Shown here one piece after another: positions 5,047 through 62,266 of a stretch of DNA of 64,000 nt; the stretch's first letter is position 1; the number at the start of each line of letters is the position of its first letter. Made by a program: the position numbers and the translations under genes. Below the pieces are notes generated by a model. That model ran no database searches. It worked only from the letters and a program-made list of their open reading frames with translations, and was not told the origin of the DNA. Source of the stretch: Xylocopilactobacillus apis (GTDB lineage Bacteria > Bacillota > Bacilli > Lactobacillales > Lactobacillaceae); assembly GCF_033095965.1 (NCBI RefSeq), contig NZ_AP026801.1, positions 62,001-126,000 of the forward strand. The letters are read 5' to 3'.

Positions 5047-6345
5047 ATGTTTAGATTAAAGAAGAGTTGGCGCAGATGGTTCACTGTTGCTGCCATCTTT
5101 AGTTTATTATTTATTTTTGTAGGTTGTTCTAAGAGTTCAAGCAGTAAGAGTGATAGTTCTTCGGCATCGAAAGATGCAACGTCATCTAAGAAAGTTCAGA
5201 TTGTTTTCTGGCATCGGATGACGGGAACCTGGAAGACTTCACTTGATAAAGTTATCGATGATTTTAATAAATCACAGGATAAATATGAAGTTAAAGGGAT
5301 CACTCAAGGTTCGATTGATCAGCTAAAACAAAAAGTTATGGCCGCAGCTCGTTCGAAGACGCTGCCAACGATCACTCAATTACCTTATACGAGTATTCCT
5401 GACTACATTACTCAAGGACTTTTAGAAAAAGTCAGCTTTACAGCAGATCAGAAGAGTGATATGTATCCCGCAATTTTGTCATCAACAGAATATAAAGGAG
5501 ACAATTATTCAGTTCCGTTTGCTGATTCAACCCAGTTACTTTTTATTAACGATCAATTAGCTAAAAAGTATAATTTAAAAACTCCGACAAGTTGGGATGA
5601 TCTTAAAACGATCGGTGCTCAATTGAAGAAGGACGGCGTTTACGCAATGAGTCTTGATCAGTCATATGACATGGTTCTTGAAAGTATGGCTAATGAAGCA
5701 GGTTATCCTTTTGTTACAAAAAATGGAAAAGCTAACCTTAGTAAACCTGAAGTTATTGATGCTGCGAAGACAATTCTTGATTTAAAAAAAGAAGGATTTT
5801 TAAAGACAGCAGAAGAAGATCAATACGGCAGTGTTGCAATGCTTAATAACAAAGCAGTCTATGGCATTGGATCTTCAGCTAACATTGGCGAATTTACTAA
5901 TCGGGCTAAGAAAGGTCAGACTTTCTCAACGGCTGCGATTCCTGCTTATAAAGGAAAGAATGGCGATGTAATTTCTGCTAATAACTTAGTTTTATTCAAG
6001 AGTTCATCAGCTGATCAAAAGAAAGGTGCCAAAGCATTCTTTAATTATATGCTTAAGCCGGAAGTTGCAGCTTATTGGGCAAAGAAATCTGGTTATGTGC
6101 CAACAACTAAGTCAGCAATGAAAGAAAAAGTTTATCAAGATTATGTTGCTGCTAATCCAAGTTATAAAGCAGTAGAAGAATCGATTGAAAGTGCTTATGC
6201 TTCTAATCAATTTGCCGGCTATGATAACTTTAGAACTAAAATGTTAAGTGCGGTTGATTCTACTTTGACCACTAACACCACAGCTCAAAAAGCGTTCACT
6301 TCTTTACAGAAAGACACCGAAGATATCTTAAAACAAAACAAATAA
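5047..6345 (+). CDS. Sugar/glycerol-3-phosphate ABC transporter substrate-binding lipoprotein (UgpB-like)
   Basis: This extracellular solute-binding protein family 1 member is anchored by a lipid-modified cysteine. The hydrophobic signal FSLLFIFVGC ends in a lipobox, then a Ser/Lys-rich linker. The mature part opens with VQIVFWHRMTG, the UgpB-type start, and continues through DSTQLLFINDQLAKKY, the usual binding-protein core. The start ATG 5047 follows AAAGGAG at 5036-5042; an earlier in-frame ATG at 5023 has no site. No permease or ATPase is adjacent. A UgpC-A-E set without binding protein lies at 20887-23663, so the two may belong together. Ligand is inferred only. Confidence 0.88.
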   Translation: MFRLKKSWRRWFTVAAIFSLLFIFVGCSKSSSSKSDSSSASKDATSSKKVQIVFWHRMTGTWKTSLDKVIDDFNKSQDKYEVKGITQGSIDQLKQKVMAAARSKTLPTITQLPYTSIPDYITQGLLEKVSFTADQKSDMYPAILSSTEYKGDNYSVPFADSTQLLFINDQLAKKYNLKTPTSWDDLKTIGAQLKKDGVYAMSLDQSYDMVLESMANEAGYPFVTKNGKANLSKPEVIDAAKTILDLKKEGFLKTAEEDQYGSVAMLNNKAVYGIGSSANIGEFTNRAKKGQTFSTAAIPAYKGKNGDVISANNLVLFKSSSADQKKGAKAFFNYMLKPEVAAYWAKKSGYVPTTKSAMKEKVYQDYVAANPSYKAVEESIESAYASNQFAGYDNFRTKMLSAVDSTLTTNTTAQKAFTSLQKDTEDILKQNK

Positions 6346-6361
6346 AACTTAATCAATTTAT

Positions 6362-6393
6362 AATATCCAATCGCATGGTTGGATATTTTTTTT
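6362..6393 (+). terminator. Terminator of the binding-protein gene
   Basis: The stem AATATCCAA / TTGGATATT has an eight-base loop and a long T run. Confidence 0.9.
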
Positions 6394-6420
6394 TACCTTA
6401 AATCGGTTTATACTATTGCT

Positions 6421-7265
6421 ATGAAAAAAAATAAAAATTTACAGTAGCTGCGTTAACGCTTCTTTTAACTCCGACACTTTTAGTAGGATGTGGAGATAAT
6501 AAAAAAGCAGATACTTCTGACAAGGACGCAGTTAATAAGTATAAAACTGAGCTCGCAAATAAATACGAAAAAGAGGCTAATGAATCTCTTACCAAAGGAA
6601 AGATTACTGAAGCTTCGGTATATTACAATTTAGCTGAAGATGAGGGTAAAACCTCTAATTCACTGCAAGACGATCTAAGTGCATGGAAGAAAGCAACGGA
6701 CTTCGAAACTGTCGGTAACTATAAGGAAGCTTTAAATAAATTTAAGGCAATCCCTAAAACTAGTAATAAGGGCTTTAACCGGATTTTAGATTTAAAGATT
6801 TCTGATCTAACTACGGTTGTGGGAAATATTAATAAATATAATAAAGGTTATCAACAAGCAGAGACCAGTTACAAAGGGAAGAATTATCCAGAGGCAATTA
6901 AACAGTTAAATGCACTTTTACAGGATCCAGCAATCAAAAATAAGGAATATACTGAAATATTTGCGAATGTTAATAAGTTGTTAGTAACTGCGACCGAAGC
7001 TCAATACAAGATTAGTTCTCAAAATACTCAGAGCCAAAATAATACTCAACAAAGTACACCGCCGAAGTTAACAAATGGCAAGCAAGTTACGCAGCAAGAT
7101 ATTGTTAAAGCGCGTCAGCAGATTGATCAGTTAAATGTTGATGGAATTAAAGCTCAAAATTGCAGTGATCCGGATGTTGTTAATGTAATCAATGCTGCGT
7201 TGAAGAATCATAACAGTAAAGACTTAACAGCAAAAGATATTAAAGATGGTTTACATCTCAAATAA
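6421..7265 (+). pseudogene. Lipoprotein with TPR-like helical repeats, frameshifted in the signal peptide
   Basis: The ATG at 6421 opens MKKNKN and then stops, while the body of the gene is open in the next frame from 6435 to 7265. Adding one A to the A5 run at 6433-6437 restores MKKNKKFTVAALTLLL and a lipobox ending LLVGC, giving a 281-residue lipoprotein. The mature part has TPR-like helix pairs (NYKEALNKF, NYPEAIKQL), then a Gln/Asn/Thr-rich linker and a short C-terminal helical domain. A TATACT box ends six bases before the ATG and no ribosome site is visible, so the mRNA may be leaderless. Function is unknown. The break may be a sequencing artefact. Confidence 0.7.
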
Positions 7266-7273
7266 CAAATATT

Positions 7274-7300
7274 CGTCAAACTTAAGGTTTGGCGTTTTTT
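7274..7300 (+). terminator. Terminator after the lipoprotein gene
   Basis: The stem CGTCAAAC / GTTTGGCG has one G-U pair, a five-base loop and six T. Confidence 0.88.
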
Positions 7301-7381
7301 GTTTTATTGATTATGATAAAAATTCTAGTAACTACGACTTTACAAAATATTGAAAGTATAGATTTAAACAATAAATTACGA

Positions 7382-7396
7382 TACACTTTCAGTGTA
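7382..7396. promoter_or_regulatory. Perfect palindrome upstream of the putative defence operon
   Basis: TACACT-TTC-AGTGTA lies 37 bases before the start of the first operon gene. A weak TTGAAA/TAAATT pair (7350-7377) lies just before it. It could be an operator; no regulator is encoded next to it. Confidence 0.35.
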
Positions 7397-7432
7397 AGTT
7401 ATCCGCTTAAAGCGTAGGGGGGTGAATTTTAT

Positions 7433-8308
7433 ATGACGAATAATAATAGAGCCATCAATTTGATTTTCACCCGTAGGGTATTGAATGATTTATTAGTTAA
7501 TGGAACAAGCGAAGTATTTAATTACGTTGTTCAGCGTTACGTAAATGACCCTCAAGATAAAACACATGGGCAGATATTTAGTGAAATTTATCATTCATTA
7601 GGTGAAGATAATCGTAATGAATATTATTATATGAATACTTTACTGAATAAACTTTTGGTAGGGATACATAGTGTTCATACAACAACTGCCCTTTCACAAT
7701 TACACATAGGTCAACATATAGCAGATTTTGTAATGCTGAATGGTGAAGGAAAAGTTTATGAAATAAAATCTGATCTTGACAATTTTGATCGATTACATGA
7801 TCAAATTCAGGATTACTTTTCGGCATTTAGTAAGGTTTCAGTTTTGGCTTCAATACATGAATATGACAGAGTTCAGAAGCTTCTTAAAGATTTTGGTGAC
7901 ATGGGCGAAGCTGTCGGCATATACGTTCTTTCTGAGGATGATACGATTTTCAGTAAATCACGCAGCAAGGAACCCCAACAGTATAATGAATATTTAAGTC
8001 ACACAAATATGTTTAAGATTTTGCGAAAGAAAGAATACGAAAATATAATATTAGACCATTTTGGAGAAATACCAGATGTGAAACCAGTATTTCATTTCAA
8101 AGCTTGTCTTAAAAAATTTGAAGAGATTCCAATACTAGAAGCTCAGAATTATCTTGTTCAAGAGCTTAAGAAACGAAATAAAATAACAAGAGTTATGTTT
8201 AACGACATTCCAACAGAATTGAGATCGGTTGTTTATTTTTCTCAAATGTATCGAAAATTACCCCAATTACAGGAATTACTTCAAACAAATTATGCGGAGG
8301 AAAAATAA
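7433..8308 (+). CDS. sce7726-family protein, probable PD-(D/E)XK nuclease
   Basis: This 291-residue cytoplasmic protein is recognised as sce7726-like by its overall sequence and by its sce7725-like neighbour. A nuclease core is visible: D98 in HIADFV, a strand, then E110-I-K112 in YEIKSD, which is the D...ExK signature of PD-(D/E)XK enzymes, with E51 as a possible first acid. The C-terminal third is helical and charged. The start follows a very strong AGGGGGGTG site. The stop overlaps the next start by one base (TAATG), so translation is coupled. The family has no settled function; nuclease activity is inferred. Confidence 0.75.
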   Translation: MTNNNRAINLIFTRRVLNDLLVNGTSEVFNYVVQRYVNDPQDKTHGQIFSEIYHSLGEDNRNEYYYMNTLLNKLLVGIHSVHTTTALSQLHIGQHIADFVMLNGEGKVYEIKSDLDNFDRLHDQIQDYFSAFSKVSVLASIHEYDRVQKLLKDFGDMGEAVGIYVLSEDDTIFSKSRSKEPQQYNEYLSHTNMFKILRKKEYENIILDHFGEIPDVKPVFHFKACLKKFEEIPILEAQNYLVQELKKRNKITRVMFNDIPTELRSVVYFSQMYRKLPQLQELLQTNYAEEK

Positions 8309-9225
8309 TGTATTTTCCCTATTTCAGAGGAAGAATGTACGAGCTTCTTGCTTTAAAAGAACTAGTTGCTGATGGTAAATTAAGTAATTCGATTATCCCT
8401 ATTATTGAACCTATAAAACTCACATCAACTTTTAATAACTTATTGACCACGTTTGACGCTGCTGATCATAAACTGGCTATAGTTTATAATCCCGAGGTCG
8501 GAGACCTGTCAGATAGCTCTGATGGGATTGAGCTAATGGATAACAATTGCGTAATTCCTTCCATTTTAGTTAATAAATCCGCCATTAGTACTGTTGCTGC
8601 ACTCAAAAGTCAAGGAATACAAGAAAAAGATATTTTAGCAGTGCTGAATAAAAGAGATTTTATCGAAACTTATCAGACTTTATTTGACACTGATTCTCCT
8701 AAATATACGATAGCAAGTAAAGATCGTCAAATACTTCGTAAAGCGAAAAGTCCAAAGGTTCTTTTTGATGATAAATTTAGTAAACGTGAGAAGAATGCAG
8801 ATTACTTAAAAGAAGATGATGAATTTTTTTCCGAAGATCATTTATATTACAGTGAGGAAGGTTTTGAAGGTTTCGGTGATTATTCAATAATTGGTAATGA
8901 ATACAATGAGGGAGGTTTTGCACCTAGAGCAGTGGCTATTCACATAGTTTACTTTGCCAAAAATAATGAACTAAGGATCCATCATTTTGTTTCTGATTCA
9001 AACTTCGATATTTCTGATGTTGCTGGGAAATTTAACGAAGCGGTCTTAAAGCTGCAAAAATGGTATAGTTCACAATCAGAAATTCAATTGACCTACGCTT
9101 TACAACTGTTATTAAATCATGCAGAAGAAGGGACTTATCCAGGGTTACCGACAATTAAAAAACTATCTATGATGCACCATATGGAATTAATTGGTAAATA
9201 CTTAGGTGGGAGCAAAAAAGGATGA
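8308..9225 (+). CDS. sce7725-family protein
   Basis: The protein begins MYFPYFRGRMYELLALKEL, the hallmark opening of sce7725-family proteins, which occur beside sce7726 genes. It has 305 residues, no signal peptide and no membrane segment. The central part is acidic (KEDDEFFSEDHLYYSEEGF), followed by a conserved-looking block with FGDYSIIGNEYNEGGFAPRA and AIHIVYF. No catalytic motif can be named. It overlaps its upstream partner by one base and its downstream partner by four, so the three proteins are probably made together. The function is unknown; context suggests a role in defence or toxicity. Confidence 0.75.
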   Translation: MYFPYFRGRMYELLALKELVADGKLSNSIIPIIEPIKLTSTFNNLLTTFDAADHKLAIVYNPEVGDLSDSSDGIELMDNNCVIPSILVNKSAISTVAALKSQGIQEKDILAVLNKRDFIETYQTLFDTDSPKYTIASKDRQILRKAKSPKVLFDDKFSKREKNADYLKEDDEFFSEDHLYYSEEGFEGFGDYSIIGNEYNEGGFAPRAVAIHIVYFAKNNELRIHHFVSDSNFDISDVAGKFNEAVLKLQKWYSSQSEIQLTYALQLLLNHAEEGTYPGLPTIKKLSMMHHMELIGKYLGGSKKG

Positions 9226-10265
9226 ACTGTTGTGTAAATTGCTTTAAAGACAGTGAAATTCGCTCAATAATCGACAGTTATAGAAACGTAGGAAAATGTG
9301 ATTTTTGCGGTTCAGATGATGTGTCAATTTATGATGTTAATAGCAAAGAAAATCCGATTGCTGATCTAATAATCGGAGTAATTGATATTTATAATATATC
9401 AACCAGTAATTATTCTAAACCGTTAAGGAAGGCTCTAAGTGAAGACTGGGATATTTTTAAACCGAATGAAGAATCCACGCTTTCACTCGTTAAAGAATTA
9501 TGTTCGTCTGATCCTGTAAGCAACAATAAATTTAAAGAAAATGTTGAGATTTTCAATTTAACCAGTAAAAATTTTTTGAAAAAGCACTCTATTATTGGAG
9601 ATAAATCTTGGCGTGACTTTTCAGAATATATCAAGAGAGAAAATAGATTTCACGCAAATATATTTAATGCAGAAAAGTTTGGCTTTTACATCAGTAAAGC
9701 TCAAGAAAAAATTTATAAAAATACTATAATGTATAGAGCAAGAATTTGCCCTCAAAAAGAAGGTTTTAAAAAGACAAAAATGGGGGCTCCCCCAATTGAT
9801 AAACGAATATCAGGGCGTGTAAATCCGGAAGGGATCGGAGTTTTATATCTTTCGCTTGATTCCGAAACAGTACTGAATGAGACAAGAGCTTCTTCATTAG
9901 ATTTCGTAAGCGTTGGTAGTTTTAAATCGAAGAAGGATATAAAAATTATTGATTTGACAAAGTTTTCTGAAATAAGTTTTACTTTCTTTGAAGATTCCTT
10001 GGAAGAGTTTGCCGTTAACAGTAAAGTTCTTAAAGATATCGCTTTGGAAATTGCAAAGCCATTAAGAAGAAACGATAGTCCGTTAGAGTACCTACCGACC
10101 CAATATATAACCGAATTTATCAAGAGCAAAGGGTATGACGGAGTAAAATACGCAAGTACTTTAAGATCGAAAGGTTATAATGTGGCTGTTTTTGATGAAA
10201 GCCTTTTGGAATGTTTTGATGTAAGAACTATTGAAATTACAGATGTAAAATACGATCATACATAA
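9222..10265 (+). CDS. HEPN/RES-type protein with C-terminal RES (NAD-degrading) domain
   Basis: The N-terminus has two cysteine pairs (C4/C7 and C26/C29) that look like a zinc ribbon, then a helical region to about 160 of the HEPN/RES N-terminal type. From about 165 a RES domain follows: MYRARICP with R172/R174, GRVNPEG at 199, LYLSLDSETVLNETR with E220, and KYASTLR with S312. The Arg-Glu-Ser set is that used by RES toxins to consume NAD+. No Xre antitoxin is adjacent, unlike the well-known Xre-RES pairs. The ATGA overlap with the preceding gene shows coupling. Enzyme activity is inferred from motif conservation. Confidence 0.78.
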   Translation: MNCCVNCFKDSEIRSIIDSYRNVGKCDFCGSDDVSIYDVNSKENPIADLIIGVIDIYNISTSNYSKPLRKALSEDWDIFKPNEESTLSLVKELCSSDPVSNNKFKENVEIFNLTSKNFLKKHSIIGDKSWRDFSEYIKRENRFHANIFNAEKFGFYISKAQEKIYKNTIMYRARICPQKEGFKKTKMGAPPIDKRISGRVNPEGIGVLYLSLDSETVLNETRASSLDFVSVGSFKSKKDIKIIDLTKFSEISFTFFEDSLEEFAVNSKVLKDIALEIAKPLRRNDSPLEYLPTQYITEFIKSKGYDGVKYASTLRSKGYNVAVFDESLLECFDVRTIEITDVKYDHT

Positions 10266-10330
10266 TCTGAATCGCTCTCTGTTTTTAAATTATAATGAGA
10301 TGTAAAATTTACAGAATACAAATAACAGTC

Positions 10331-10356
10331 AGCGTTCATAAACTGAGCGCTTTTTT
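10331..10356 (+). terminator. Terminator of the three-gene operon
   Basis: The stem AGCGTTCA / TGAGCGCT has one G-U pair, a five-base loop and six T. Confidence 0.9.
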
Positions 10357-10640
10357 GTTGCAGCAAAAAAGGATATTCTAATGAGGGGGGGATACGCTAA
10401 TTCCTATCTTTTTTTTAATTAAAAAAGCTTGATCTCCGCTACAAGTCCAACTTTTCTATTTTAGAAGATAACTCCTAAAAAATTACTTTTTACAATTACG
10501 ATATATTTCATGTTTTCAAAAGTCAAATTTTTCTACGTATATCAACACATTTTTAAAAATTTACATCTAATTTAAAATTAGTTTCTTCCACTATACAAGT
10601 ACAAGATTTTGATCTTTACTCCCTTTAATTGTAGGTAAAT
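10357..10640. other. AT-rich spacer without recognisable gene
   Basis: It has a G7 run at 10385-10391 and a T8AATTA6 palindrome near 10410. No coding frame of note was seen. Confidence 0.5.
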
Positions 10641-10669
10641 TTGGTACCTACTTGAAAATATTGTAAAAT
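10641..10669 (+). promoter_or_regulatory. Promoter of the Fst-like toxin mRNA
   Basis: TTGGTA, 17 bases, TAAAAT. The leader that follows can form CTCCCC/GGGGAG, and its ACCTCC could pair with GGAGGT in the ribosome site, as expected for a toxin mRNA with hidden translation start. Confidence 0.6.
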
Positions 10670-10753
10670 GACCATACCTCCCCAATTTGCACTTCAGGGG
10701 AGATCTGAACTTTCTTGAAAATCGGAGGAGGTGAGGAGAGAACACTATTTTTT

Positions 10754-10870
10754 ATGACCTTCATAATTGATATAGTCAAAATAGTAGTGACAGCCGTTGT
10801 CAAATTTTTATTTGATATTCTGTATGATTGGATTAAAGAACGTCACCAGAACAAGCTCAAAAAGCGGTAG
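10754..10870 (+). CDS. Fst-like type I toxin, small membrane peptide
   Basis: This 38-residue peptide starts MTFIIDIVKIVVTAVV, has one hydrophobic segment of about 18-20 residues and a basic tail ending KKR. This is the build of Fst/Ldr-type toxins, which damage or depolarise the membrane. A very strong purine-rich site (GGAGGAGGTGAGGAG) precedes the ATG. The first codons lie in a 20-bp direct repeat (10756-10775) repeated at 11030-11049 inside a convergent minus-strand RNA. A hairpin terminator follows the stop. The small size prevents firm family assignment by eye, but the whole arrangement matches par/Fst modules. Confidence 0.72.
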   Translation: MTFIIDIVKIVVTAVVKFLFDILYDWIKERHQNKLKKR

Positions 10871-10885
10871 TATCACGAGACTAAA

Positions 10886-10914
10886 AAGCAAGTATTAGAG
10901 GTACTTGCTTTTTT
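10886..10914 (+). terminator. Terminator of the toxin mRNA
   Basis: The stem AAGCAAGTA / TACTTGCTT is followed by six T. It is flanked by A on the left, so it could also work on the minus strand. Confidence 0.85.
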
Positions 10915-10917
10915 AAT

Positions 10918-11046
10918 AAAAAAACCCTGGAGTCATTTTTTATTAAAAAAATGACTTACACCAGAGTTTGTTATATAACACTAATCATTTGGCAACAATA
11001 TTAGAGGTATCATTGCGAGGAGATTTTAAGACCTTCATAATTGATA
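10918..11046 (-). ncRNA. Antisense antitoxin RNA of the Fst-like module
   Basis: On the minus strand TTGACT (11081-11076), 17 bases and TAATAT (11058-11053) form a near-ideal promoter; an overlapping TATAAT lies three bases further. The transcript would start near 11046, cross the direct repeat at 11030-11049 and end at a long hairpin (10918-10969) with seven T. It is therefore convergent with the toxin mRNA and shares a 20-bp repeat with its start region, as RNA II does in par systems. The RNA is inferred from signals only. Confidence 0.65.
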
Positions 11047-11049
11047 TAG
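11030..11049. repeat. Second copy of the 20-bp toxin-start repeat
   Basis: It is identical to 10756-10775 (GACCTTCATAATTGATATAG). It provides complementarity between the toxin mRNA and the convergent RNA. Confidence 0.85.
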
Positions 11050-11238
11050 ATTATATTATTCTATACCATCTAAAAAGTCAAATCGAACCAACAACTTGTA
11101 TGTGTCAAGTTGTTCTCGGTAGCCATTAATCTAATTTGAATATTCTTTTTAATTTAAATAATTATCTGCAGTAATTTATCTTGCTCCAAGGATGAACTTT
11201 ACGTTGAAAGTTGATTTTGGAAGCAAAATTGTTGTTAA

Positions 11239-11358
11239 TTAATAACTCTTGCCAGCCTTCCTATTGGACTGCTGCTTGCTCCATTTACCGAGATGATCTC
11301 TTCCTTTATTCCGAGGTGTTTTGTTTGAATATTTCTTAAAATATTCTGGATTAATCAT
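11239..11358 (-). CDS. Very small basic ORF, doubtful
   Basis: A 39-codon frame starting MINPEYFKKY is rich in Lys, Arg, Asn and Ser. No ribosome site is visible and no family was recognised. It may be the tail of a lost gene. The surrounding 11090-11470 holds nothing else that can be supported. Confidence 0.2.
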   Translation of the reverse strand: MINPEYFKKYSNKTPRNKGRDHLGKWSKQQSNRKAGKSY

Positions 11359-11470
11359 TAAGTAGATATTTCTTATTTATGGTGGAAAAAGATGAGATAC
11401 TTAAGAATAAAATATTAGTTTTGAACGTACAATTATCAAAGTTCTCTAATTAAGAAAATGTTGTCGCAGC

Positions 11471-11492
11471 AAAAAAGCGCCAATCGGCGCTT
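11471..11492 (-). terminator. Terminator of glnPQ
   Basis: On the minus strand AAGCGCC-GATT-GGCGCTT is followed by a T run, just after the glnQ stop. Confidence 0.9.
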
Positions 11493-11497
11493 TCGTC

Positions 11498-12244
11498 TTA
11501 AGCATTGATAATTTTATTAATAAATTCTTTTGCCCGATCACTGGTTGGATGCTCAAAAATAGTATCTGGCGCATCATCTTCTAAGATAACCCCATCATCG
11601 AAGAACACCACACGATCGGCAACTTGCTTCGCAAATCCCATTTCGTGAGTAACGATGATCATGGTCATCCCCTGTTTAGCCAATTTACGCATAACGTTTA
11701 ATACGTCACCAACCATTTCAGGATCAAGAGCGGAAGTTGGTTCATCGAAAAGCATGATATCTGGATTCATTTCAAGAGCTCTAGCGATCGCCAAACGCTG
11801 TTTTTGACCACCGGATAATTGAGCAACCGGTGAGGTTTCCTTTTCGGCGAGACCTACTGTATCAAGCAACTTGCGAGCTTTGGCGTTTGCTTCGTCTGGC
11901 GTCATGGTTTTAAGCGTCAGTGGCGCATAAGTGATATTTTCAATGACATTTTTGTTATTGAAAAGGTTAAAGTTCTGAAATACCATCCCAATACGCTGAC
12001 GAACAGCATTAATATCACTTTTTGGATCAGCAACGTTTACGCCATCGACGATAATCGTCCCTTCATTAATTTCTTCCAGCTGATTGATAGCTCGAAGAAA
12101 TGTTGATTTTCCAGAGCCAGAGGGGCCGATCATAACGACAACTTCGTTTTCATGGACGTCAAGTGAGATCCCTTTGAGAACTTCATGGCTGCCGAAAGAT
12201 TTATGAACATTTTCAGCATGAATTTTAAGTTGTTTTTCTTCCAT
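11498..12244 (-). CDS. glnQ: Polar amino-acid (glutamine) ABC transporter ATPase
   Basis: This 248-residue cytoplasmic ATPase energises glutamine/glutamate or similar uptake. Walker A is IGPSGSGKS starting at about residue 39, the signature is QLSGGQKQR at about 142, and Walker B is [15 protein letters not shown], followed by the H-loop VTHEM. Its start overlaps the stop of glnP by one base (TAATG), so both are translated together. It is followed by the operon terminator. The gene pair matches lactococcal GlnPQ in order and domain layout. Confidence 0.93.
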
Positions 12245-61735: not shown

Positions 61736-62266
61736 ATGAAAATAAACATTGAACAATTAAAAAAAGAACAGGCAGCCGAATTCTGGCAGCTGGCATTTAG
61801 TAATCCAACTCCTGAATGGAAAAAGTGGGATGGACCATATTTTAACGATCGGTTTCCAAGTTTAGAAGAATTTTCAAACGATGATTATTATTATGAAAAT
61901 CCATTATTTCAAGTAATTATGGTTGATGATCAGATGGTCGGATGTGTGACAGCTTATTATGAAGACGGCGATTTAAAAAAATGGCTTGAGATCGGGATTG
62001 TAATTTATCAAAGCAATCAGTGGCAAAAAGGAATCGGGAAGGCTGCTTTAAGTAAGTGGATAAATCAATTGTGGACAACGACCGATCTGCCGCACTTGGG
62101 ACTTACTACTTGGTCAGGCAATACCCGGATGATCCATTTAGCCGAAAGTTTAGGAATGAAACAAGAAGCCTGTATTAGAAAAGTTCGATACTGGCAAGAT
62201 CAGTATTGGGATAGCGTGAAATACGGGATTCTTCGAGAAGAATCTAAATTATCTGATGTTGAATAA
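61736..62266 (+). CDS. GNAT-family N-acetyltransferase
   Basis: This 176-residue protein has the GNAT core: the strand FQVIMVDDQMVGCVTAYYE, a long strand LEIGIVIYQSNQWQKGIGKAAL carrying the acetyl-CoA loop Q-x-x-G-I-G-K, and the late GLTTWSGNTRMIHLAESLGM block of RimJ/RimL-type enzymes. The acceptor is unknown. An extended -10 box (TGATATGAT) ends six bases before ATG 61736 and no ribosome site is visible, so a leaderless mRNA is likely. Confidence 0.9.
   Translation: MKINIEQLKKEQAAEFWQLAFSNPTPEWKKWDGPYFNDRFPSLEEFSNDDYYYENPLFQVIMVDDQMVGCVTAYYEDGDLKKWLEIGIVIYQSNQWQKGIGKAALSKWINQLWTTTDLPHLGLTTWSGNTRMIHLAESLGMKQEACIRKVRYWQDQYWDSVKYGILREESKLSDVE

Follow-up and report, generated by a model that had tools for sequence, protein, structure and literature searches.

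A mobile sce7726-sce7725-RES operon of Xylocopilactobacillus apis as a probable phage defense system resembling P4 gop-beta-cII

A 64,000-nucleotide stretch of the Xylocopilactobacillus apis genome (here called the window; positions 62,001 to 126,000 of NZ_AP026801.1, the single 2.27-Mb contig of assembly GCF_033095965.1) carries an operon of three genes, encoding an sce7726-family protein, an sce7725-family protein, and a zinc ribbon-RES protein. This trio is real, conserved, and mobile. It is probably a phage defense system with an exchangeable killing part, and the reading we favor, with somewhat more confidence than doubt, is that of a mobile cII/beta-type module directed against phages, with a core carrying a RES effector that would consume nicotinamide adenine dinucleotide (NAD+). 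The original prediction, made from the sequence alone, had proposed a defense operon at this site; it missed the kinship of gene 1 to cII of P4 and the probable kinship of gene 2 to P4 beta.

Three overlapping genes form a conserved, mobile operon

All three open reading frames (ORFs) lie on the plus strand. Gene 1 (7433 to 8308) encodes a 291-amino-acid sce7726/cII-type PD-(D/E)XK-like protein whose core spans approximately residues 62 to 180 and includes D98, E110, and K112, gene 2 (8308 to 9225) encodes a 305-amino-acid sce7725 TIM-barrel protein that is probably remotely related to the Beta_protein family, and gene 3 (9222 to 10265) encodes a 347-amino-acid protein composed of a zinc ribbon (recognized by eye), a middle region, and a RES domain. 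Genes 1 and 2 share 1 base and genes 2 and 3 share 4 bases, just as originally described, and the single ribosome-binding site said to precede the trio is the G-rich AGGGGGGTGA at 7416 to 7425 on the plus strand, 5' of the gene 1 ATG at 7433.

GTDB contigs were scanned with an sce7725 alignment built from nine loci, yielding at least 596 pattern matches and at least 543 relatives, of which the best 80 were kept. In 79 of these best 80 genome loci, sce7726 directly preceded sce7725 and RES directly followed it, all in one orientation, as judged by protein profiles with broken and contig-cut copies counted, and intergenic spacing was near zero in most. Because the nine query sequences were themselves trio members, this set is biased by similarity to trios, and 79 of 80 overstates the generality of RES; less biased samples are provided by the Bacillota (8 of 9 with RES, window included) and by viral contigs (20 of 33). 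The co-occurrence of the three families, which had been suggested as a check on the operon, was borne out in the best 80 loci and in the Bacillota sample alike.

Most copies in the best 80 loci were intact. RES was full length and open in 73 and broken in 4 (L058, L066, L067, and L117); in 2 loci it ran off the contig, and 1 locus had none. The sce7725 gene was open in 78, and sce7726 was broken in 1. Damage confined to a single gene affected RES in the four loci just named, sce7726 in L087, and sce7725 in L078. The sole exception to the trio arrangement, L096, has a frameshifted sce7725, with no RES seen.

Judging from record titles, the best 80 loci are mostly from Bacillota and extend to Pseudomonadota, Actinomycetota, Bacteroidota, Spirochaetota, Synergistota, Chloroflexota, and Gastranaerophilales. 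The trio is found on plasmids of Moraxella, Shinella, Pseudorhizobium, and Rhizobium and, adjoining integrative-element genes, on a Salmonella houtenae contig. In a plasmid collection, a RES match lay next to sce7725 in 10 of 11 records, several of them near copies, the eleventh being from Enterococcus faecium. Within the Bacillota sample, sce7725 was present in 9 of 398 genomes (window included), always adjoining sce7726 and in eight cases adjoining RES, with a split RES gene in one of the eight (G335); in the ninth locus (G305), sce7725 and sce7726 are both broken and RES was not seen. Co-occurrence of sce7725 and sce7726 by genome in this sample had a p value of 2e-12. Distance matrices of the three proteins correlated at r values of 0.84, 0.88, and 0.88 over 70 length-filtered unbroken trios, compared with maxima of 0.13 to 0.15 in 1,000 shuffles.

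In the window, the trio sits in an insertion of about 4.2 kb (7268 to 11498, ends approximate) at a site that is empty in three congeneric genomes. Both flanks were present, and the trio was without a match, in all three congeners searched (the window's own genome apart), and an sce7725 profile found no family member in any of them. The flanking genes, named by eye, encode a sugar-binding lipoprotein and an amino-acid ABC transporter, and the gap between the site-adjoining gene and the transporter gene measures approximately 29 bases in G002 and 105 bases in G001 and G003, versus about 4.2 kb in the window.

One locus (L091) has two trio-type RES proteins, at 5862 to 6956 and 8920 to 9972, of which one precedes sce7726 and the other is in the usual place. 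Another (L053, 2163 to 5834) is a trio on a human-faecal contig filed as phage, with a gene for a DUF2971 protein close behind.

Gene 1 is a predicted nuclease and a cII homologue

The gene 1 product scored 154.6 bits against the sce7726 family model of NCBIfam (NF033832; cut-off, 70). D98, E110, and K112 were invariant in all 88 aligned sce7726 rows; rows in this and the other residue counts were length filtered, with broken copies excluded. An AlphaFold model of gene 1 (predicted local distance difference test score [pLDDT], 94.2) has a restriction-enzyme-like core. A Foldseek search with this model returned nothing at an E-value of 0.001 or better (best, 0.04), and VIA matches, at Z values from 9.1 to 5, included the uncharacterized 3dnx (9.1), PaqCI (8.4), XisH-type proteins, McrC, Can2, NucS, BamHI, and others. 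VIA Z values below 8 are common between unrelated folds, so the case for a nuclease depends on the run of nuclease matches together with the invariant triad. On this basis gene 1 is a PD-(D/E)XK nuclease-like protein, with a D...E-x-K motif on a modeled restriction-enzyme core fold, and is a predicted nuclease; the PD-(D/E)XK assignment with D98 and E110-x-K112 agrees with the original prediction, and the model has the nuclease-type core whose lack would have told against it. By sequence, PDB chains searched with gene 1 at E-values up to 1 gave only 22 helix-turn-helix rows (PadR; 0.3 to 1).

A link to phage P4 came from defense-system models. The PADLOC model "cll" matched gene 1 at 7.7e-14 (50.1 bits), and the same model matches P4 cII at 375.9 bits. 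Profile alignment by hhalign of P4 cII and nine Bacillota relatives against sce7726 covered 178 columns with a probability of 99.1 and an E-value of 6e-19. As judged from these profiles, gene 1 is a homologue of P4 cII, and the trio contains the cII component of gop-beta-cII.

Gene 2 is a TIM barrel and probably a distant relative of beta

The gene 2 product belongs to the sce7725 family of NCBIfam (NF033831; 332.7 bits; cut-off, 60), and its model (pLDDT, 92.4) is a TIM barrel, which speaks against a non-barrel fold. The only Foldseek match under an E-value of 0.001 was a designed protein, followed by tryptophan synthase alpha, and VIA gave Z values of 10 to 11.4 to many TIM barrels. The best viral-structure match was an uncharacterized Gordonia phage protein (1.2e-8). 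Sequence searches of PDB chains with genes 2 and 3 gave no match at E-values up to 1. Five residues of gene 2 were kept in 96 to 100% of 113 rows, non-trio proteins included: E34, N61, D155, and D191 lie at or next to predicted strand ends, and H212 lies inside a strand. This conservation and placement in the model suggest that the sce7725 barrel has a functional pocket.

Local hhalign comparison of sce7725 with beta gave a probability of 52 with 10 beta rows and of 77 to 80 with more rows (E-value, 2e-5), with E-values from 1.5e-4 to 1.5e-5 over these local comparisons, compared with E-values of 0.12 or worse for five unrelated pairs, which served as controls in local mode only; the global alignment covered 277 columns (probability, 66; E-value, 7e-6). 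A beta profile matched sce7725 in 11 of 33 viral-contig loci at E-values from 1.1e-4 to a best of 3e-9 and none of the other ORFs there at 1e-3 or better, E-values in these searches, as in the scan of the viral contigs for the trio genes, referring to small ORF sets. In the reverse direction, a profile of viral members recovered one beta protein (8e-5). The window sce7725 itself was matched neither by the PADLOC beta model nor by Pfam PF14350. From these alignments, sce7725 is probably a distant homologue of P4 beta, a relationship that is likely but not proven.

Beta proteins and sce7726 also meet in a second arrangement. A short sce7726 subfamily in Bacillota is convergent to a Beta_protein (PF14350) gene. 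PF14350 was present in 11 of 396 Bacillota genomes, in every case directly beside and convergent to sce7726, and of the 24 genomes (among 398) with sce7726, 9 had sce7725, 11 had PF14350, and 4 had neither (one below the cut-off). In L150, L154, L155, L157, L158, L160, L162, and L167, an sce7726 protein of about 200 amino acids is convergent to a Beta_protein gene and overlaps or nearly touches it. Such loci are candidate cII/beta systems of Bacillota.

Gene 3 combines a putative zinc ribbon with a RES domain

The gene 3 product matched the RES family PF08808 at 59.5 bits (gathering cut-off, 23.2), and its RES catalytic region, placed by Pfam and by conserved residues, spans residues 172 to 336 (9735 to 10229, plus strand). 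R172, R174, Y209, E220, and S312 were kept in all 83 aligned rows and N320 in 82, so the Arg, Glu, and Ser positions earlier reported as intact are indeed conserved. The zinc ribbon was read by eye from a CxxC...CxxC pattern, and no Pfam zinc domain matched; its cysteines, located from alignments between 9231 and 9308 on the plus strand, were kept in 78 (C4), 82 (C7), 82 (C26), and 75 (C29) of 83 rows.

A RES toxin of Pseudomonas aeruginosa lowers NAD+, according to the available text of PMC8065639, and with a RES domain in gene 3, NAD+ loss would be expected. RES, as presented in the accessible portion of PMC9503650, has Tyr and Asn in place of the Ser and Glu usual in its clade, and its product is ADP-ribose-1''-phosphate. 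Conserved Tyr, Asn, Ser, and Glu residues are all present in gene 3, a comparison made by description rather than by alignment to a characterized RES toxin.

The title of the original prediction had placed gene 3 with HEPN proteins, a part that found no support. HEPN ribonucleases carry a conserved R-x4-6-H motif. No HEPN domain model of Pfam matched gene 3 at E-values up to 1, and no conserved Arg was seen by eye 4 to 6 residues before H144, a position that is F or N in six of eight diverse rows (by eye), yet H in at least 90% of 74 genome rows. HEPN_RES_NTD1 (PF18870) scored 11.2 bits against a cut-off of 27.4, and 23.1 bits in a Moraxella relative. In the sections available of PMC3710099, this domain is described as largely helical, as being joined to a HEPN or a RES domain, and as not itself HEPN. 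A HEPN ribonuclease effector is therefore unsupported.

Comparison with known defense and toxin systems

In the available part of its description (Rousset et al. 2022, PMC9122126), P4 gop-beta-cII defends Escherichia coli from lambda and P1, with Gop being toxic when beta is missing. The trio resembles this system in combining a cII-family nuclease-like protein, a beta-type partner (by remote homology), and a third, presumably toxic protein on mobile DNA. It differs in its third protein, a zinc-ribbon RES protein rather than Gop, which has 133 amino acids and appears membrane-like by eye, and in gene order, since the trio genes are co-directional and overlapping whereas P4 cII is convergent to beta. 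It also lacks a PADLOC beta match in the window sce7725, and gene 3 is RES, not Gop. By anatomy, the trio is probably a variant of the P4 gop-beta-cII kind with RES in the effector slot, but it is not a member by the models of that system.

A second system for comparison is PD-lambda-2, in which a beta-type protein, PD-lambda-2C, lies beside a toxin-antitoxin pair in an abortive-infection defense. PD-lambda-2C, "related to a P4 phage antitoxin," is needed for defense and not for toxin neutralization, in the passages available of the original report (Vassallo et al. 2022, PMC9519451), and PADLOC PD-Lambda-2_C models also match P4 beta. Unlike the trio, PD-lambda-2 has a toxin pair of a HigB-like protein and an Xre-peptidase, and neither RES nor a cII partner appears in the available text of PMC9519451. 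No HigB-like or Xre-peptidase component was found among the trio genes by Pfam, PADLOC, or NCBIfam.

RES domains are also found in RES-Xre modules such as ResA/XreA of P. aeruginosa (available text of PMC8065639), which share the RES domain of gene 3. The trio differs in having no adjoining Xre gene and in its zinc ribbon, middle region, and sce7726/sce7725 company. Consistent with the original statement that an Xre antitoxin is missing, no Xre-like gene adjoins the trio: the upstream neighbor of gene 3 is sce7725, and there is no ORF of 60 amino acids or more in 10265 to 11498. An Xre-controlled toxin-antitoxin module was rejected on these grounds. Proteins with an extra N-terminal zinc ribbon, HEPN/RES-NTD1, and RES, as listed in the accessible part of the survey by Anantharaman et al. 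(2013, PMC3710099), have the layout of gene 3; they differ in being known there as a protein layout and not as this operon, and the NTD1 score of gene 3 is below the cut-off. No description of an sce7726/sce7725/RES trio was found in the open-licence PMC literature, supplements apart, "sce77" is not mentioned in the available parts of PMC13092281 or PMC12839542, and "RES domain" is not mentioned in those of PMC13092281.

A proposed mechanism and its alternatives

In the favored reading, sce7726 and sce7725 would form a core unit, presumably as a complex, that senses or attacks invading nucleic acid. On the P4 precedent, this core would hold the zinc-ribbon RES enzyme in check; infection would release or activate RES, which would cleave NAD+ with phosphate and deplete it, so that the cell might be arrested or killed, protectively, before phage is made. 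Kinship to cII and beta supplies a precedent for toxin control and for defense, making sce7725 a candidate for the controlling role of Xre type. The defense proposal remains plausible but incomplete: the conserved operon, nuclease-type core, RES domain, mobile carriers, and lack of Xre all stand, and HEPN is unsupported.

Neighborhoods bear on the same proposal. At 40 trio loci, 131 neighbor proteins matched 123 PADLOC families at 1e-10, including PtuA, AriA, AbiLi, and type II and IIG restriction, compared with 19 families for 131 control neighbors from 19 non-trio Lactobacillales loci, both counts being of models rather than genes. Trio neighbors were the two nearest genes per side (131 of 150 used; 19, mostly short, were left out by hand or unprinted), and control neighbors were 2 to 5 genes away, from 19 of 24 non-trio loci (131 of 182 used; several long helicases and the last loci were left out for size). 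Because the control set differs in distance and taxon and is without several helicases, 123 versus 19 is suggestive only, and these matches suggest that trio neighborhoods are rich in defense genes. By Pfam, the trio neighbors included resolvase (5), recombinase (3), phage integrase (2), and AbiH (2) members beside metabolic families.

Several observations weigh against this interpretation. The open-licence PMC literature yielded no experiment with an sce7726/sce7725/RES trio, and the genes around the trio in the window appear by eye to be ordinary metabolic genes, with no defense island. The beta link is remote and strongest over the first 55 to 125 residues: PF14350 scored below its cut-off of 27 on sce7725 relatives (25.9 bits in L221, 16.2 in L227, and nothing in the other four scanned), a reverse search with the trio-trained profile recovered no beta protein, and the window sce7725 and RES proteins had no PADLOC match at E-values up to 1. 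RES, the presumed effector, is broken in 4 of the best 80 genome loci, and the three parts can be found apart, in relatives of the host, in viral contigs, and on plasmids.

Among 150 relatives of the window genome, sce7725 was found at 27 loci in 26 genomes (the window's own included), of which only 3 (the window, L024, and L026) are trios; at the remaining 24, RES is missing and sce7725 has another partner. This partner is a protein of about 230 amino acids, of the type "MKTKLT...GIVDTL...YELKVTK," in front of sce7725, and 14 of the 24 loci have a gene of about 790 to 800 codons two genes upstream of sce7725; the one such protein scanned is an XPD/DinG-like helicase with weak Cas4 similarity. 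In these Lactobacillales loci (L022 to L047 except L024 and L026; for example, L025, 7983 to 11973), sce7725 is closely coupled to the D...ELK protein. The partner was considered as a recognizable sce7726 homologue and found no support as such, with hhalign probabilities of 0.4 and 1.8, although a D...ELK motif can be read by eye.

The 33 viral-contig sce7725 loci all have sce7726, at least in part, upstream, with RES in 20, none in 12, and a contig end in 1; sce7725 is full length in 9 of the 12 RES-less loci, and no trace of RES was recovered by RES queries from the 10 of these 12 that were tested. These 33 loci are redundant: ten (L207 to L215 and L226) resemble a single element, L222 nearly duplicates L225 and L223 nearly duplicates L224, and L202, being of equal length, is seemingly the same Clostridioides contig as L105; L232 to L234 have a broken or short sce7725. 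A phage integrase adjoins the RES-less pair of L217. In L222 and L225 (4108 to 8322), the pair is followed by an AAA_21 ATPase (492 amino acids) and a 280-amino-acid protein without a Pfam family, which might represent another effector or a defense system of their own.

Conversely, RES proteins covering 93 to 99% of gene 3 occur without an annotated pair at 8 plasmid loci, in Glutamicibacter, Priestia, Rhizobium brockwellii, Acetobacter, Enterobacter, Polaromonas, Roseovarius, and Sphingobium. These were 8 of 62 records in a collection whose gene table is incomplete, and several have genes with CBASS, TIR, AbiEii, Shedu, or three-component ABC annotations nearby. In L200 (3944 to 8094), a plasmid RES-type protein of similar length lies a few genes from a CBASS phospholipase and nucleotidyltransferase.

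An unlikely alternative casts RES as a toxin with constitutive activity, which sce7725 would neutralize as a dedicated antitoxin, in the way of beta and Gop, with sce7726 in an accessory role; the operon would then persist mainly by addiction, with defense as a by-product. Gop toxicity without beta, as given in the part of PMC9122126 available, fits this view, as do loci in which RES is broken and sce7725 is open (L058, L066, L067, L117, and L140), whereas a broken sce7725 beside an open RES occurs once (L078); in L096 and G305 a broken sce7725 goes with no RES seen. These counts are small, some broken copies may be assembly errors, and they are too few to decide roles. Against this view, the pair occurs at the 12 RES-less viral loci, 9 with a full-length sce7725, and the 8 plasmid RES proteins have no annotated sce7725 alongside. 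PD-lambda-2C, moreover, is dispensable for neutralizing its toxin in the available text of PMC9519451. With the pair found without RES and RES without the pair, sce7725 is probably not just an antitoxin; on the P4 precedent, it would still be expected to exert some control over RES.

We also doubt, rather more strongly, that sce7726 and sce7725 act directly on invading DNA, cutting or blocking it while the cell survives, and leave RES as a back-up or modifying enzyme. The RES-less viral pairs (with an integrase beside L217), the D/E/K triad kept in 88 of 88 sce7726 rows, and the Lactobacillales pairing of sce7725 with another ELK-motif protein, in 14 of 24 loci near the gene of about 790 to 800 codons, would all be accommodated. 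RES within trios, on the other hand, is full length and open in 73 of 80 best loci, with conserved positions kept in 82 to 83 of 83 rows, which points to strong selection on RES. A role in cellular stress or DNA repair that has nothing to do with phages, with mobility and defense-rich surroundings incidental, is very improbable: the metabolic-looking window neighbors (by eye) and the repair-type helicase adjoining some Lactobacillales sce7725 loci would suit it, but sce7725 is patchy (9 of 398 Bacillota genomes), and the trio lies on plasmids and beside integrative-element genes and is missing from 3 of 3 congeners.

The favored reading, a mobile anti-phage module, can be extended to a broader scheme, which we regard as possible and lean against. 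In this scheme, cII-type nucleases and beta/sce7725-type TIM barrels would be one ancient, widespread immune core with varying third parts, and the barrel would be a shared switch whose conserved pocket reads a small molecule or nucleic acid and decides the release of the attached part. Third parts would be Gop in P4, RES in the trio, and none seen in some viral contigs; beta alone would join the HigB/Xre-peptidase pair in PD-lambda-2, and sce7725 would join the other ELK-motif protein in Lactobacillales.

The sce7726 and sce7725 families, named only by locus tags, are now tied to an experimentally shown anti-phage system and gain a testable role, and the trio supplies a RES effector that would be controlled independently of Xre. 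The idea of cII/beta pairs as a general switch for attaching different toxins also becomes testable. At about 2.8 kb the trio is compact and self-contained, and it occurs in several phyla, so that it is directly clonable.

Other features of the insertion and its flanks

The operon is bracketed by two terminator-like hairpins on the plus strand, one upstream (7274 to 7294) and one downstream (10331 to 10351); 5 such hairpins were observed across the region versus 1.4 expected. A weak promoter-like site, TTGAAA-16-TAAATT (7350 to 7377, plus strand), is a consensus match only (9 of 12), and 20 promoter-like sites were observed across the region versus 15.6 expected. The G+C content is approximately 32% over the operon and 34 to 42% in the 1-kb windows that reach to 6 kb and those past 11 kb, a dip that starts already at about 5.5 to 7 kb, outside the insertion. 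The 1.2 kb or so 3' of the operon and inside the insertion (10265 to 11498), the segment without ORFs of 60 amino acids or more, has a G+C content of 30 to 31%. Beside the insertion, 6437 to 7265 is an apparent relic of a lipoprotein gene of about 290 to 330 codons that is open in the three congeners (L193 to L195); only its C-terminal part is still open in the window (ORF 6819 to 7265).

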